A stretch of DNA of 38,426 bases from Micrococcaceae bacterium (GTDB taxonomy: Bacteria; Actinomycetota; Actinomycetes; Actinomycetales; Micrococcaceae): contig JAODMR010000031.1 of the NCBI GenBank assembly GCA_025465475.1, positions 1 through 38,426 on the forward strand, given 5' to 3'. Shown one piece after another: positions 14,439-21,088 of the stretch (positions are counted from its first letter, which is position 1; every line of letters starts with the position of its first letter). Both the position numbers and the translations under genes were made by a program. The notes below the pieces were generated by a model that was given only the letters and a program-made list of their open reading frames with translations, made no database searches and was not told the origin of the DNA.

Positions 14439-15179
14439 TTACGCTTCTCCTCTAATCATGCGGATGAACAGTTCGTGGACGCGCCGCTCCCCCGTGACTT
14501 CGGGGTGGAACGACGTCGCCAGCAGGTTCCCGGAACGGACTGCCACGGCGCGGGTGGTTTCTTCGATTCTAGCCGCCGGTGCTAGGCGGGCGGCGGGAGC
14601 TCCTCCGGCAACCAGGGCCGGTTCGCGCTCCGCGGCCGGAGCGATGACCCGGACGGAGGCCAGCACGTCCACGGCGGACCCGGTCCGCTCCACCCAGGGG
14701 GCCCGGATGAAGACGGCATGCACCGGCTCCCGCGGTTCCGCGGTGTCCGGATTCGCGTCCAGGCCGGCGAAATCCAGGTCCGTTTCAAAGGACTCGCGCT
14801 GCCTGCCGAAGGCGTTGCGGCGGACCGTGATGTCCAGTCCGCCAAAGGTCTGCTGCGGAGCACCGTTACGGTCAAGGGCCGGGTCAGCAATGTCATTGGC
14901 CAGCAGGATCATCCCGGCGCAGCTGCCGTAGACGGGCATCCCCACGGCGATGCGCTCCTTGATCGGCTCGGCCAGGCCGAACATGCGGGTCAGCTTGTCG
15001 ATGGTGGTCGATTCGCCGCCGGGGAGAATGAGGCCGTCGACGGCGGCCAGCTCGGCGGGCCGGCGCACCGGAACGGCCGTGGCGCCGCAGGACTCGATCA
15101 TCCTGGCGTGTTCCCGGACATCGCCCTGCACGGCAAGGATCCCGACGACCGGGCTGGCGCTTAGCTTTCTGCTGCTCAC
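14439..15179 (-). CDS. pdxT: Pyridoxal 5'-phosphate synthase glutaminase subunit PdxT
   Basis: Hydrolyses glutamine and channels ammonia to PdxS for PLP synthesis. 246 residues with the class I glutaminase triad: the nucleophile Cys87 in YGSCAGM and the His/Glu of SFHPEV; the GGES motif is at 54–57. It is longer than the usual ~200 residues because of an Ala/Arg-rich insertion (about 184–210, [20 protein letters not shown]) before the final strand. The start is GTG at 15179 without a good Shine-Dalgarno, consistent with a leaderless message. Its partner pdxS is 5 kb away, separated by asnB and the peptidase gene on the other strand. Confidence 0.95.
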
Positions 15180-15281: not shown

Positions 15282-17957
15282 ATGTGCGGAATCGCCGGTT
15301 ACTACGGTTACGGGGAAGACGAAGCGCTCCTGCGGGAGATGAACAGGTGCATTGAGCACCGGGGCCCCGACGGCGAGGGTATCTACACCAAGGACGGCGT
15401 TGGCCTTGCCCACCGCAGGCTCTCCATCATCGACGTCGCTCACGGCCAGGAGCCCATGTTCAGCGCCGACGGCCAGACGGTGCTGATCTACAACGGTGAG
15501 GTCTACAACTACCTGGACCTGCGGGCCGAGCTGGAGGCCCTCGGCCGGACCTTCACCACCGTGTCCGACACCGAGGTGGTCCTGCAGTCCTACGAGGAGT
15601 GGGGCGACGCCGCGTTCGACCGGTTCAACGGCATGTTCGGCATCGCCATCCACGACCGGAAGAACAACCGGTTCGTGCTGGCACGTGACCACTTCGGCAT
15701 CAAGCCGCTGTACTTCGCCGACACCAGCAGCGACGGCGAAACCCGGCTCCTGTTCGGGTCAGAGATCGCCCCGATCCTGGCGGCGAACAAGATTGAGCGC
15801 AAGCCCAACGAGCGCATTCTGTACCGCTACCTGCAGTTCCGCATCCATGACGAGGAGCCTGACACCTTCTTCGAAGGCATCACTAAGCTGATGCCCGGCG
15901 AGAAGCTCGTCGTGGACCTCAACCCCGCCGGCGCCGGCGGCTTCACCGTCAGCCCGTACACCCGTCTGAAGGAAGAACTGGCGGAGCTGGCCTCCATCGG
16001 CACTCCCTACAGCCCCGAGGTTGTCGAAGAGTACCGGCAGCGGTTCACCGAGGGCGTGCGGCTGCGGCTGCAGTCCGAGGTCCCGGTGGGTACCGCCCTG
16101 TCCGGTGGGCTGGACTCCTCCGCCGTCGTCGCCACCATCAACAAACTGATGCAGGAAAATGCCGCTGCAACCGACTCGCTGGGCGCGACGCAGCAGACGT
16201 TCACCGCGATCTTCCCCAACTCCATCAACGATGAGGAAAAGTACGCCGACGCGGTCCTGGCCACCTGCAAGGGGAACGTAACCAGCCACAAGATTCTGCC
16301 CAAGGCAGCGGAATTCGCCGAGGACCTGGAGGACTTTGTCCGCACCCAGGAGGAGCCCATTATCTCCTCCGGCCCCTACGCCCAGTACCGGGTGATGCAG
16401 GAAGCCTCCAAGCACGTCACCGTGCTGCTGGACGGCCAGGGCGCCGACGAAATGATGGCCGGCTACATTCCGTACTACATCGCCTACCTGCGACAGCTGA
16501 AAAAGGAGGGCCAGAACACCAAGCTGGCCAAGGAGCTGGCTTCCTCCTCCGACATCCTGTTCCGGCTGGGCCGGTTCCGGCTCAAGGGCATGCTGACGGC
16601 GCGCAAGGAACTGTCCATCTCCTCGCTGCTGAACAAGGACTTCACCGCCCGGTTCAAGGGCGAAAAGTTCTCCAACATTCCGGACAACCTCAAGCTGCGC
16701 CTCATCGATGACCTGTTCCACAAGTCGCTGCCGGCCGTGCTGCGCTACGAGGACAAGAACACCATGCGCTTCTCCCTGGAGGGCCGGGTTCCCTTCCTGG
16801 ACAAGGAAGTGGTGAAGTTCCTCTTCAGCCTGGATGACGAGTCGATCATCAAGGGCGGCTGGAACAAGCGGATCCTGCGGGACGCAACCCGGGGCCTGCT
16901 GCCGGAGATGATCAGCAACCGCCGCAACAAGATCGGCTTCACCACTCCCGAGGCGGAGTGGTTTGTCCTGATGAAGGAAAAGATCTACCAGATTTTCCTC
17001 TCATCCTCGTTCGAAAACAGGCCCTACTGGAACCAGGACGCGGTGCTCTACGCCTTCGAGGAATACCTCACGGGCAAGAACAGCGCCTCCACCATGGTCT
17101 TCTGGCGGCTGCTCAATACTGAGCTGTGGCTGCGCGAATTCTTCGACGAACCGGAGGTCAAGGCGGGCATCGAAGGCAAGAGCGACTACGTGCCGAACGC
17201 CGACAAGCAGCTGGACATCACGGTACCGGCCGACGGCGGAACCTACCGCCGCTACCCGCTGCGGACCGAGGTGTTCTACAAGGACACCGAGTTCGATCCG
17301 GCTGTCCGCAGCTATGTGGAGCGGTTCTTCGCCGGACTGCCGGACGCCGGCGACGAACACCGCGCCGCAACCTCGGACACTCCCTGGTACCTCTTTGTCA
17401 GCGAGAAGATCGTCGCCATGACGCAGGGCCGTTCGATTCCGGTCTGGGATATCAAGGTCACCGGGGCGGCGCGGCTGCTGAGCAGGTTCGTCACCCGGAA
17501 CCCGGGCGGCATCGGCCTGGCCAGCCCCTGGTCCATGCAGCTGGCCATCGACGAGGTGGGGCTGCCGCGCATCGCCTATGCGGCGGCGCGCAGCGTGGTG
17601 GGCAAGCTGCAGGGCAAGAGCGGCGTGTTCTATGAGGTTGTGGGCCACAACATCAACGCCATCGACGGCGCTGCCGGATACCAGGTGGGCACCTCCACCC
17701 ACTCGGTGAAGTACGCCCCCAAGGACCCGGAAGGTGTGGCACGCCGCCTCAGCGCCATGGTGCGCGACGCCGTTCCCGCCGAGTACGCGAAGACCTTCGC
17801 CGGCACCGCCATCATGGACGCCAATGACCTGGGCGTCGTGGTGCTGGGTCATGACACGCCCTTGTCCAAGGACGTTGTCGAGGGCATCTTCAGGGACAAC
17901 CCGCAGGGCCAGACGACGGAGACCACGCCCATGTCGATGGTGTTCCAGCGCTCCTAG
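15282..17957 (+). CDS. asnB: Asparagine synthetase (glutamine-hydrolysing) fused to a CofE-like domain
   Basis: Residues 1 to about 640 are a complete class II asparagine synthetase: mature N-terminal Cys after the start Met (MCGIAGYYG), RRLSIID and IYNGEVYN glutaminase motifs, the ATP-pyrophosphatase loop SGGLDSSAV at 274–282, and LLDGQGADEMMAGY. From about residue 656 a second domain begins (RRYPLRTEVFYKDTEF) and runs to residue 889. It resembles F420-0:gamma-glutamyl ligase (CofE)-type proteins: SEKIVAMTQGRSIPV from 707, GIGLASPWSMQLAIDEVG, an AIDGAAG segment, NDLG at 848 and DNPQGQ at 872 before TTETTPMSMV. Class II synthetases are usually 550–650 residues, so 891 is a true fusion in one uninterrupted frame. 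The start has AGATGAGG eight bases upstream. Two amide-forming domains in one chain suggest a dedicated amidation/glutamylation enzyme; the substrate is unknown. Confidence 0.9.
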   Translation: MCGIAGYYGYGEDEALLREMNRCIEHRGPDGEGIYTKDGVGLAHRRLSIIDVAHGQEPMFSADGQTVLIYNGEVYNYLDLRAELEALGRTFTTVSDTEVVLQSYEEWGDAAFDRFNGMFGIAIHDRKNNRFVLARDHFGIKPLYFADTSSDGETRLLFGSEIAPILAANKIERKPNERILYRYLQFRIHDEEPDTFFEGITKLMPGEKLVVDLNPAGAGGFTVSPYTRLKEELAELASIGTPYSPEVVEEYRQRFTEGVRLRLQSEVPVGTALSGGLDSSAVVATINKLMQENAAATDSLGATQQTFTAIFPNSINDEEKYADAVLATCKGNVTSHKILPKAAEFAEDLEDFVRTQEEPIISSGPYAQYRVMQEASKHVTVLLDGQGADEMMAGYIPYYIAYLRQLKKEGQNTKLAKELASSSDILFRLGRFRLKGMLTARKELSISSLLNKDFTARFKGEKFSNIPDNLKLRLIDDLFHKSLPAVLRYEDKNTMRFSLEGRVPFLDKEVVKFLFSLDDESIIKGGWNKRILRDATRGLLPEMISNRRNKIGFTTPEAEWFVLMKEKIYQIFLSSSFENRPYWNQDAVLYAFEEYLTGKNSASTMVFWRLLNTELWLREFFDEPEVKAGIEGKSDYVPNADKQLDITVPADGGTYRRYPLRTEVFYKDTEFDPAVRSYVERFFAGLPDAGDEHRAATSDTPWYLFVSEKIVAMTQGRSIPVWDIKVTGAARLLSRFVTRNPGGIGLASPWSMQLAIDEVGLPRIAYAAARSVVGKLQGKSGVFYEVVGHNINAIDGAAGYQVGTSTHSVKYAPKDPEGVARRLSAMVRDAVPAEYAKTFAGTAIMDANDLGVVVLGHDTPLSKDVVEGIFRDNPQGQTTETTPMSMVFQRS

Positions 17958-20164: not shown

Positions 20165-21088
20165 CTACCAGCCGCGCTCGGCGAGGCGGTGGGGCTGCGG
20201 GATCTCGTCGACGTTGATGCCGACCATGGCTTCGCCGAGGCCGCGGGAGACCTTGGCGATGACGTCGGCGTCGTCGAAGAAGGTGGTGGCCTGCACGACG
20301 GCGGCAGCGCGCTGCGCCGGGTTGCCCGACTTGAAGATGCCCGATCCGACGAACACGCCGTCGGCGCCGAGCTGCATCATCATGGCGGCGTCGGCGGGGG
20401 TGGCGATACCGCCGGCGGTGAAGAGCACCACGGGAAGCTTTCCGGTCGCGGCGATTTCCTTGACCAGTTCGTACGGGGCCTGGAGTTCCTTCGCGGCAAC
20501 GTACAGCTCATCCTCGGGCAGCGAGCTCAGGCGCTTGATCTCGCCGCGGATCTGGCGCATGTGGGTCGTGGCGTTGGACACGTCACCTGTTCCGGCCTCA
20601 CCCTTGGAACGGATCATGGCCGCGCCCTCGTTGATACGGCGCAGCGCCTCACCGAGGTTGGTGGCACCACAGACGAAGGGGACCGTGAAGTTCCACTTGT
20701 CGATGTGGTTGGTGTAGTCGGCCGGGGTCAGCACCTCGGACTCGTCAATGTAGTCCACGCCGAGGGACTGCAGGACCTGAGCCTCGACGAAGTGGCCGAT
20801 CCGGGCCTTGGCCATCACGGGGATGGACACCGCTTCGATGATCTTGTCGATCATGTCCGGGTCACTCATCCGGGACACGCCACCCTGGGCGCGGATATCG
20901 GCCGGGACACGCTCGAGCGCCATGACGGCGACGGCACCGGCGTCTTCGGCGATGCGGGCCTGCTCAACGTTGACGACGTCCATAATGACGCCACCCTTGA
21001 GCATCTCCGCCATGCCGCGCTTGACCCGGCTGCTGCCGGTGACGTTGACGGACGCACCGGGTACGGGCGTTACATCAGGTGTAGACAC
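20165..21088 (-). CDS. pdxS: Pyridoxal 5'-phosphate synthase subunit PdxS
   Basis: Condenses ribose 5-phosphate, glyceraldehyde 3-phosphate and ammonia to PLP; forms a dodecamer decorated by PdxT. 307 residues, a (beta/alpha)8 barrel with the strongly conserved segments [30 protein letters not shown] (Schiff-base lysine) and [14 protein letters not shown] (second lysine and phosphate loop), and FVGSGIFKS. The start is GTG with AAGGGG five bases upstream. It has its own promoter in the 133-bp gap after pgsA. Confidence 0.97.

Follow-up and report, generated by a model that had tools for sequence, protein, structure and literature searches.

An asparagine synthetase fused to a CofE-like ligase in Micrococcaceae, a candidate enzyme for amino acid addition to the D-glutamate of peptidoglycan precursors

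The fusion gene and its domains

We analysed a stretch of 38,426 nucleotides from a Micrococcaceae bacterium (contig JAODMR010000031.1; hereafter the window), in which positions 15282-17957 of the plus strand form a single open frame of 891 codons plus stop, with zero internal stops, that joins an asparagine synthetase (AsnB) to a C-terminal domain resembling CofE, the gamma-glutamyl ligase of F420 synthesis. The parts of this gene are listed below, where motif counts refer to an alignment of 40 rows, namely the window protein and 39 of the 80 loci of a contig scan.

15282..17957, + strand: AsnB-CofE-like fusion gene, 891 aa, in one frame, with the same fusion in relatives
15282..15911, + strand: class II glutamine amidotransferase domain, about residues 1-210, with Cys2 as nucleophile (GATase_7 over residues 44-166, GATase_6 over 29-161)
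16032..17135, + strand: Asn synthase ATP-pyrophosphatase domain, residues 251-618 (PF00733, 218.8 bits)
16101-16121, + strand: SGGLDSS loop of the Asn synthase domain, residues 274-280
17205..17954, + strand: CofE-like ligase domain, residues 642-891 (Foldseek and VIA matches to CofE 2phn, profile match to CofE in the PDB)
17400..17435, + strand: SEKIVAMTQGRS motif, residues 707-718 (SEKIVA[IM]TQGRS in 40 of 40 rows)
17817..17834, + strand: DANDLG motif, residues 846-851 (D[AS]ND[LI]G in 40 of 40 rows)
17895..17912, + strand: DNPQGQ motif, residues 872-877 (DNP[LQM]GQ in 40 of 40 rows)

The AsnB half (residues 1-620) is complete by its PF00733 match and by GATase_7 (144.8 bits), and its glutaminase part holds Cys2 together with the RGPDG, YNGEVYN and SDTE motifs. 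It also passes the cut-off of TIGR01536 (412.3 bits against 267.1) with both Cys2 and SGGLDSS in place, a match that groups proteins by sequence and does not imply aspartate as the substrate. The fused copy is the sole PF00733 match in its own genome. Neither a Mur ligase middle domain nor MurT_C is among the Pfam matches of the fusion protein, for which the full-chain model reached a predicted local distance difference test (pLDDT) of 88.3.

Assignment of the C-terminal domain

Searched as a single sequence, the C-terminal domain gave weak results: it scored 16.7 bits against PF01996 on its own and 13.8 bits within the whole protein, below the cut-off of 25, the NCBIfam scan, TIGR01916 included, returned zero matches to it, and a PDB search retrieved no CofE and one unrelated match (E 1.1). 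The PF01996 search of its own genome at E 0.001 gave no match either, the fusion included, a result that argues solely against the presence of a canonical CofE or FbiB. The domain family was therefore tested by profiles, relatives and a structure model. Seven of ten related proteins (L122, L123, L128, L131, L132, L133 and L135; 27.9-44.3 bits) pass the PF01996 cut-off and three (L103, L110 and L134) miss it, and the family is matched at E <=0.01 by 39 of 42 domain sequences. At E 0.01, TIGR01916 (CofE) is matched by 11 of 23 relatives and TIGR04132 (putative folate gamma-glutamate ligase) by four of the 23, and a profile made from 23 relatives retrieved CofE in the PDB at E 2.1e-6, with the next match at 0.34.

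The AlphaFold model of the domain (pLDDT 84.3, predicted template modelling score 0.80) points in the same direction. Foldseek matched it to the CofE of Archaeoglobus fulgidus at E 1.2e-5 to 3.7e-4, the next match having an E of 1.4, and VIA aligned it to three CofE entries with Z 12.6-13.4, the best non-CofE entry reaching 4.2; the best alignment, to 2phn (Z 13.4), spans 182 residues at a root mean square deviation of 3.5 and 16% identity. On this predicted structure the domain has a CofE fold, yet it is no canonical CofE. The likeness to CofE that the preliminary description of the window had read from short motifs thus holds in the deeper profile, the relatives and the model, though the domain's own PF01996 score stays below the cut-off. 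Of the checks suggested there, the PF01996 comparison succeeds for most relatives and fails for the window domain itself, while the structure prediction matches the A. fulgidus enzyme far above all else. With CofE and the N-terminal domain of FbiB (PF01996, PDB 2phn and 7uld) the window domain has in common the fold and an amide-forming ligase family; unlike them, it lies below the Pfam cut-off, is fused to AsnB and occurs in a genome without CofD over cut-off.

Recurrence of the fusion

We surveyed a family set of 149 genomes from 32 genera, an order set of 297 genomes and a phylum set of 396 genomes. In the family set the domain occurs in 37 genomes from 10 genera, and in 35 of these carriers a single frame of at least 889 aa encodes both AsnB and the domain; in the other two, both from genus g15, the frames are 564 and 588 aa long and retain an AsnB remnant only. 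The contig scan, which looked at 80 of 132 relatives and in which some frames end at a contig edge, found AsnB sequence in the ligase frame in 80 of 80, from Micrococcaceae, Intrasporangiaceae, Flexivirga, Brachybacterium and Microlunatus as well as from metagenome bins labelled Coriobacteriia, Saccharibacteria, Nomurabacteria, Patescibacteria and Roizmanbacteria. In the phylum set the domain is present in 24 genomes, comprising the genome of the window, four with another AsnB fusion and 19 in which it is unfused to AsnB, tetratricopeptide repeat fusions of the domain among them, and at one locus (L146) asnB and the domain are directly adjacent separate genes. The pairing of AsnB with a CofE-like ligase is therefore recurrent, being found as the fusion across taxa, as other AsnB fusions and as neighbouring genes. 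The uninterrupted fusion of the preliminary description is confirmed, and a frameshift or assembly artefact is excluded by the 35 fused family carriers and the recurrence across taxa; the comparison of fused and split forms in Micrococcaceae that it had proposed gives the fused form in 35 of 37 family carriers and AsnB remnants in the two g15 genomes.

Some of these loci are of interest for their taxonomic placement. A record titled Sporosarcina beigongshangi (Bacillota; L052:4048-6753) holds an Arthrobacter-like fusion with 82% identity over the ligase domain and is probably misnamed or contaminated. The fusions on contigs binned as Saccharibacteria, Nomurabacteria, other Patescibacteria or Roizmanbacteria (L101, L105, L107, L109, L114 and L116) reflect either gene transfer between actinobacteria and the candidate phyla radiation (CPR) or mis-binning. 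In a Coriobacteriales bin (L096:2221-6744) a separate asnB stands directly before the fusion, which is followed by genes that read as dapF-like and as an LL-diaminopimelate-type aminotransferase. The g15 ligases L031 and L032 nest in the Brachybacterium clade (support 100/97), which suggests transfer between this genus and Brachybacterium.

The AsnB half accompanies the ligase and decays beside it

A full-length AsnB, defined as a single PF00733 match above 200 bits, is present in 35 of the 37 family carriers, compared with five of the 112 other genomes of the family set, a further eight of which have a shorter match in two pieces. Since 99 of these 112 genomes have no PF00733 match above 140 bits, there is no general need for AsnB in the family. 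Where AsnB accompanies the domain, Cys2, the glutaminase motifs or SGGLDSS are altered or lost in Terrabacter, Humibacillus, Intrasporangium flavum, Microlunatus, several Brachybacterium and the two g15 genomes. The SGGLDSS loop is kept in 31 of the 40 aligned rows, and the CofE motifs are intact in all 40. In genome G804, probably Brachybacterium avium, the ligase domain is intact (L206:2735-4222) and the upstream AsnB stretch lies outside the ligase frame.

In a tree of 65 rows, AsnB is decayed in 21, requiring seven changes by parsimony, of which four are forced by well-supported branches. Decay was called here by a motif rule that also takes in L114, which has Cys2 and SGGLDSS and is missing a portion of the glutaminase. 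A separate fusion group, made up of L142, L144 and L145, was assigned by hand, and the tree leaves out the window and 27 of the 80 scan loci (near-duplicates as well as L107, L109 and L116). The ratio of nonsynonymous substitution rates, dN(AsnB)/dN(CofE), is 1.94-4.21 in seven pairs with a decayed member and 0.83-1.48 in 12 intact pairs, all 19 pairs having been chosen by hand. Decay has thus struck the AsnB half several times, whereas the ligase half remained conserved: AsnB goes together with the ligase and yet can be dispensed with.

Mutual exclusion with MurT

The alpha-carboxyl of D-glutamate (D-Glu) 2 in lipid II is the site amidated by MurT-GatD (PMC3266927), and genomes with the CofE-like domain largely do without this enzyme. 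Counted genome by genome, the family set contains 37 carriers of the domain and 59 genomes with MurT_C (PF08353), and none of the 149 has both, with 14.7 expected (Fisher 2e-10). The order set gives 37 strong carriers, a count that leaves out seven weak matches (E 6e-5 to 7e-4), and 99 MurT genomes, again with both in 0 of 297 (12.3 expected, Fisher 1e-7); after removal of the window's own family, 32 carriers and 83 MurT genomes still show zero overlap. Five genera (g27, g276, g324, g36 and g37) include domain genomes as well as MurT genomes, never the two in the same genome, and a profile search found no MurT_C in the genome of the window. This exclusion points to the alpha-carboxyl of D-Glu as the target of the CofE-like ligase.

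Gene neighbourhood

MurJ, the lipid II flippase, lies at most two genes from the domain in six of the 19 unfused phylum-level genomes, which belong to four families (f31, f39, f42 and f47; loci L155, L158, L159, L160, L161 and L139, with PF03023 at up to 301.7 bits in the four that were scanned). At L151 (genome G257) the gene before the CofE-like domain encodes a Mur ligase domain together with MurT_C. Neighbours of these two kinds suggest a lipid-linked precursor as the substrate.

Family f4 is a separate case: in L147 (7721-8413), L148 and L207-L213 the stand-alone domain directly follows a sigma-factor-like gene, and an alanine-racemase-like gene, named like the former by reading, is nearby in five of the nine loci, the query locus counted.

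In the window, genes read as pdxT-like (14439-15179) and pdxS-like (20165-21088) flank the fusion and an oligopeptidase gene, which sit between them as if inserted there. The preliminary description had left it undecided whether the oligopeptidase belongs with the fusion. In a rough clustering of longest frames, which is disturbed by antisense frames in this GC-rich DNA, it neighbours the fusion in 21 loci, all numbered below L083, and hence only in loci of Micrococcaceae type; it seems not to belong to the system and was set aside as a partner.

Wall chemistry of carrier organisms

Walls of the Arthrobacter type contain lysine rather than meso-diaminopimelate (mDAP), and glycine in the walls of Terrabacter and Microlunatus, like the chemistry of group B walls, forms part of the general background. 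Sinomonas atrocyanea carries the fusion (L072 and L078); in this organism, then Arthrobacter atrocyaneus, Schleifer and Kandler (1972) reportedly described glycine amide at the D-Glu site, and Katz et al. (1967) are said to have followed glycine incorporation in Micrococcus lysodeikticus. The catalase of genome G123, one of the two g15 carriers, is identical over 502 residues to PDB 1gwe, which we take to be the M. lysodeikticus enzyme, and we infer that G123 is Micrococcus luteus; its ligase protein has no AsnB active sites.

Glycine on the alpha-carboxyl of D-Glu 2 is described for the wall of Intrasporangium calvum 7 KIP (PMC3035309), and the fusion is present in I. calvum PheN6 (L089) and, intact, in G731, which is probably the I. 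calvum type strain. The wall glycines of M. luteus are given as C-terminal in a source less explicit than that for I. calvum (PMC6533200), and the loss of the AsnB sites fits a free C-terminal glycine there. The wall of B. avium is described as containing glycine (PMC6090031), and the genome that probably represents this species, G804, has the CofE-like domain. The gene is thus present in the one species for which glycine on D-Glu is explicitly reported, I. calvum, and in the probable M. luteus genome, and the glycine reported in carrier walls suggests glycine as the residue that is joined.

Discussion

We propose, at about even odds (a probability of roughly 0.5), that the CofE-like domain attaches an amino acid (glycine, probably) to the D-Glu of a peptidoglycan precursor and that an intact AsnB half amidates the product. 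CofE is described as activating a carboxylate with a nucleotide triphosphate and then joining an amino acid (PMC10861534). The fusion would be a two-headed enzyme of precursor modification, in which the CofE-like half would join the amino acid to the alpha-carboxyl of D-Glu and replace MurT-GatD at that carboxyl, and the intact AsnB half would amidate the free carboxyl of the added residue, turning glycine into glycine amide with ammonia from glutamine; lineages without the AsnB sites would be left with a free C-terminal glycine. Within this proposal, in which we infer the activity, the substrate, the added residue, the order of the steps and the action of AsnB on the product, we place more confidence in the D-Glu carboxyl as target than in glycine as the residue or in the AsnB step. 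More tentatively, and with the odds somewhat against so broad a statement, the CofE-fold ligase may be the missing enzyme that adds glycine, or another amino acid, to D-Glu in M. luteus and many Actinobacteria, its AsnB-fused form being a one-chain factory for D-Glu-glycine-amide and a non-homologous replacement of MurT-GatD, with the AsnB half lost repeatedly where the glycine is free.

A number of observations weigh against this proposal. The family and order counts of genomes ignore phylogeny, and at the level of genera the exclusion in the family is weak (10 and 11 of 32 genera, one shared, p 0.11); three of the seven weak order-level matches sit in MurT genomes (G638, G672 and G689), and in the phylum set MurT occurs in three of the 24 carriers (G187, G257 and G375; 11.4 expected, p 5e-4). 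In family f4, MurT_C is matched weakly (23.7-38.3 bits), and 53 of the 149 family genomes have neither the domain nor MurT. No MurJ was found near the domain in 13 of the 19 unfused genomes, over stretches of differing length. The Roizmanbacteria fusion (L116) is followed by a gene for a class II (D, K, N) tRNA synthetase and an amidase gene, which suggests an asparagine-related role in that lineage. As to wall chemistry, I. calvum has an intact AsnB, yet its wall is reported with glycine and not glycine amide, although the amide may have been lost in hydrolysis, and the murein of Brachybacterium faecium, a species considered here for its wall chemistry only, is listed without glycine (PMC3035206).

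The main rival is plain synthesis of D-isoglutamine, in which the AsnB glutaminase would feed ammonia to the CofE-like domain, in direct analogy to MurT-GatD on lipid II, with no amino acid added. The exclusion of MurT in the family and order sets fits it, as does the union of an amidotransferase and a carboxylate ligase within one chain. An ATP-pyrophosphatase domain would be unneeded for such a reaction, however, and yet SGGLDSS is kept in most of the aligned rows; moreover, several lineages retain the ligase after loss of the glutaminase, and D-Glu in I. calvum is reported with glycine and not just an amide. We give this explanation perhaps one chance in several. Somewhat less probable is that the MurT exclusion is a by-product of lineage history and that the enzyme modifies some other envelope or cytoplasmic compound, as the genus-level test and the three phylum-set co-occurrences might indicate; against this, domain and MurT alternate inside five genera and inside four families, strong matches of the two never sharing a genome there, MurJ adjoins the domain in four families, and a carrier species has glycine on its D-Glu.

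We regard it as unlikely, more so than an effect of lineage history, that the cell obtains its asparagine from AsnB and that the CofE-like half attaches asparagine or another residue to a metabolite outside peptidoglycan. The fusion is indeed the only Asn synthase match in its genome, and the neighbours at L116 agree with such a role, but most domain-free genomes of the family manage without an AsnB match, for which reason asparagine supply was set aside as the main role, and the decay of AsnB beside a conserved ligase and the links to MurJ and MurT speak against it as well. Least probable by far is a role of the domain in adding gamma-glutamyl residues to F420 or folate. Resemblance to the family, including the TIGR01916 and TIGR04132 matches among relatives, and the precedent of Chlamydia CT611, a COG1478 protein described as standing in for FolC (PMC1971073), can be cited for it. 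An F420 role is unlikely because CofD does not exceed its cut-off in the genome of the window (best match 19.2 bits, cut-off 257.45), in line with the earlier remark that no F420 biosynthesis genes are in view; over the family set CofD passes in seven of 149 genomes and in only two of the 37 carriers. FolC is present (339.6 bits), so there is no folate gap for the domain to fill, and the window domain has no NCBIfam match of its own. Both functions were set aside on these grounds. CT611 resembles the CofE-like ligase proposed here as a CofE relative recruited away from F420; it differs in its folate substrate and in standing alone, and in that the genome of the fusion already has FolC.

Compared with known systems, the proposed wall enzyme resembles MurT-GatD in its target carboxyl, the alpha-carboxyl of D-Glu 2, and in pairing a glutamine amidotransferase with a ligase, and in the family and order sets the two exclude each other. 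It differs in its components, MurT-GatD being a Mur ligase with a class I amidotransferase and the fusion a CofE-like domain with a class II amidotransferase whose product would be an aminoacyl substituent. The class II amidotransferases AsnB1 and LtsA, which act on mDAP, offer an AsnB-family enzyme on a wall precursor, as proposed for the fusion; the proposed carboxyl is a different one, the fusion has an extra ligase, and Arthrobacter-type walls have lysine in place of mDAP. The preliminary description had drawn on this parallel, which explains neither the MurT exclusion nor the decay of AsnB, and had offered amidation or glutamylation of the cell envelope as one hypothesis; envelope amidation and ligation is now the best-supported line, and no evidence favours glutamate as the added residue. 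The fold is known, whereas the literature searched on the fusion, on CofE outside F420 synthesis and on glycine at D-Glu yielded neither this architecture nor the proposed role, and no enzyme was recognised in it; coverage was partial, and an earlier printed account is possible.

If correct, the proposal would identify the enzyme behind a wall modification on record since the 1960s and would reveal a second, unrelated way to mask the D-Glu carboxyl that MurT-GatD amidates. It would also explain the presence of CofE-like genes in bacteria without the F420 pathway, and wall type would become partly predictable from genomes.

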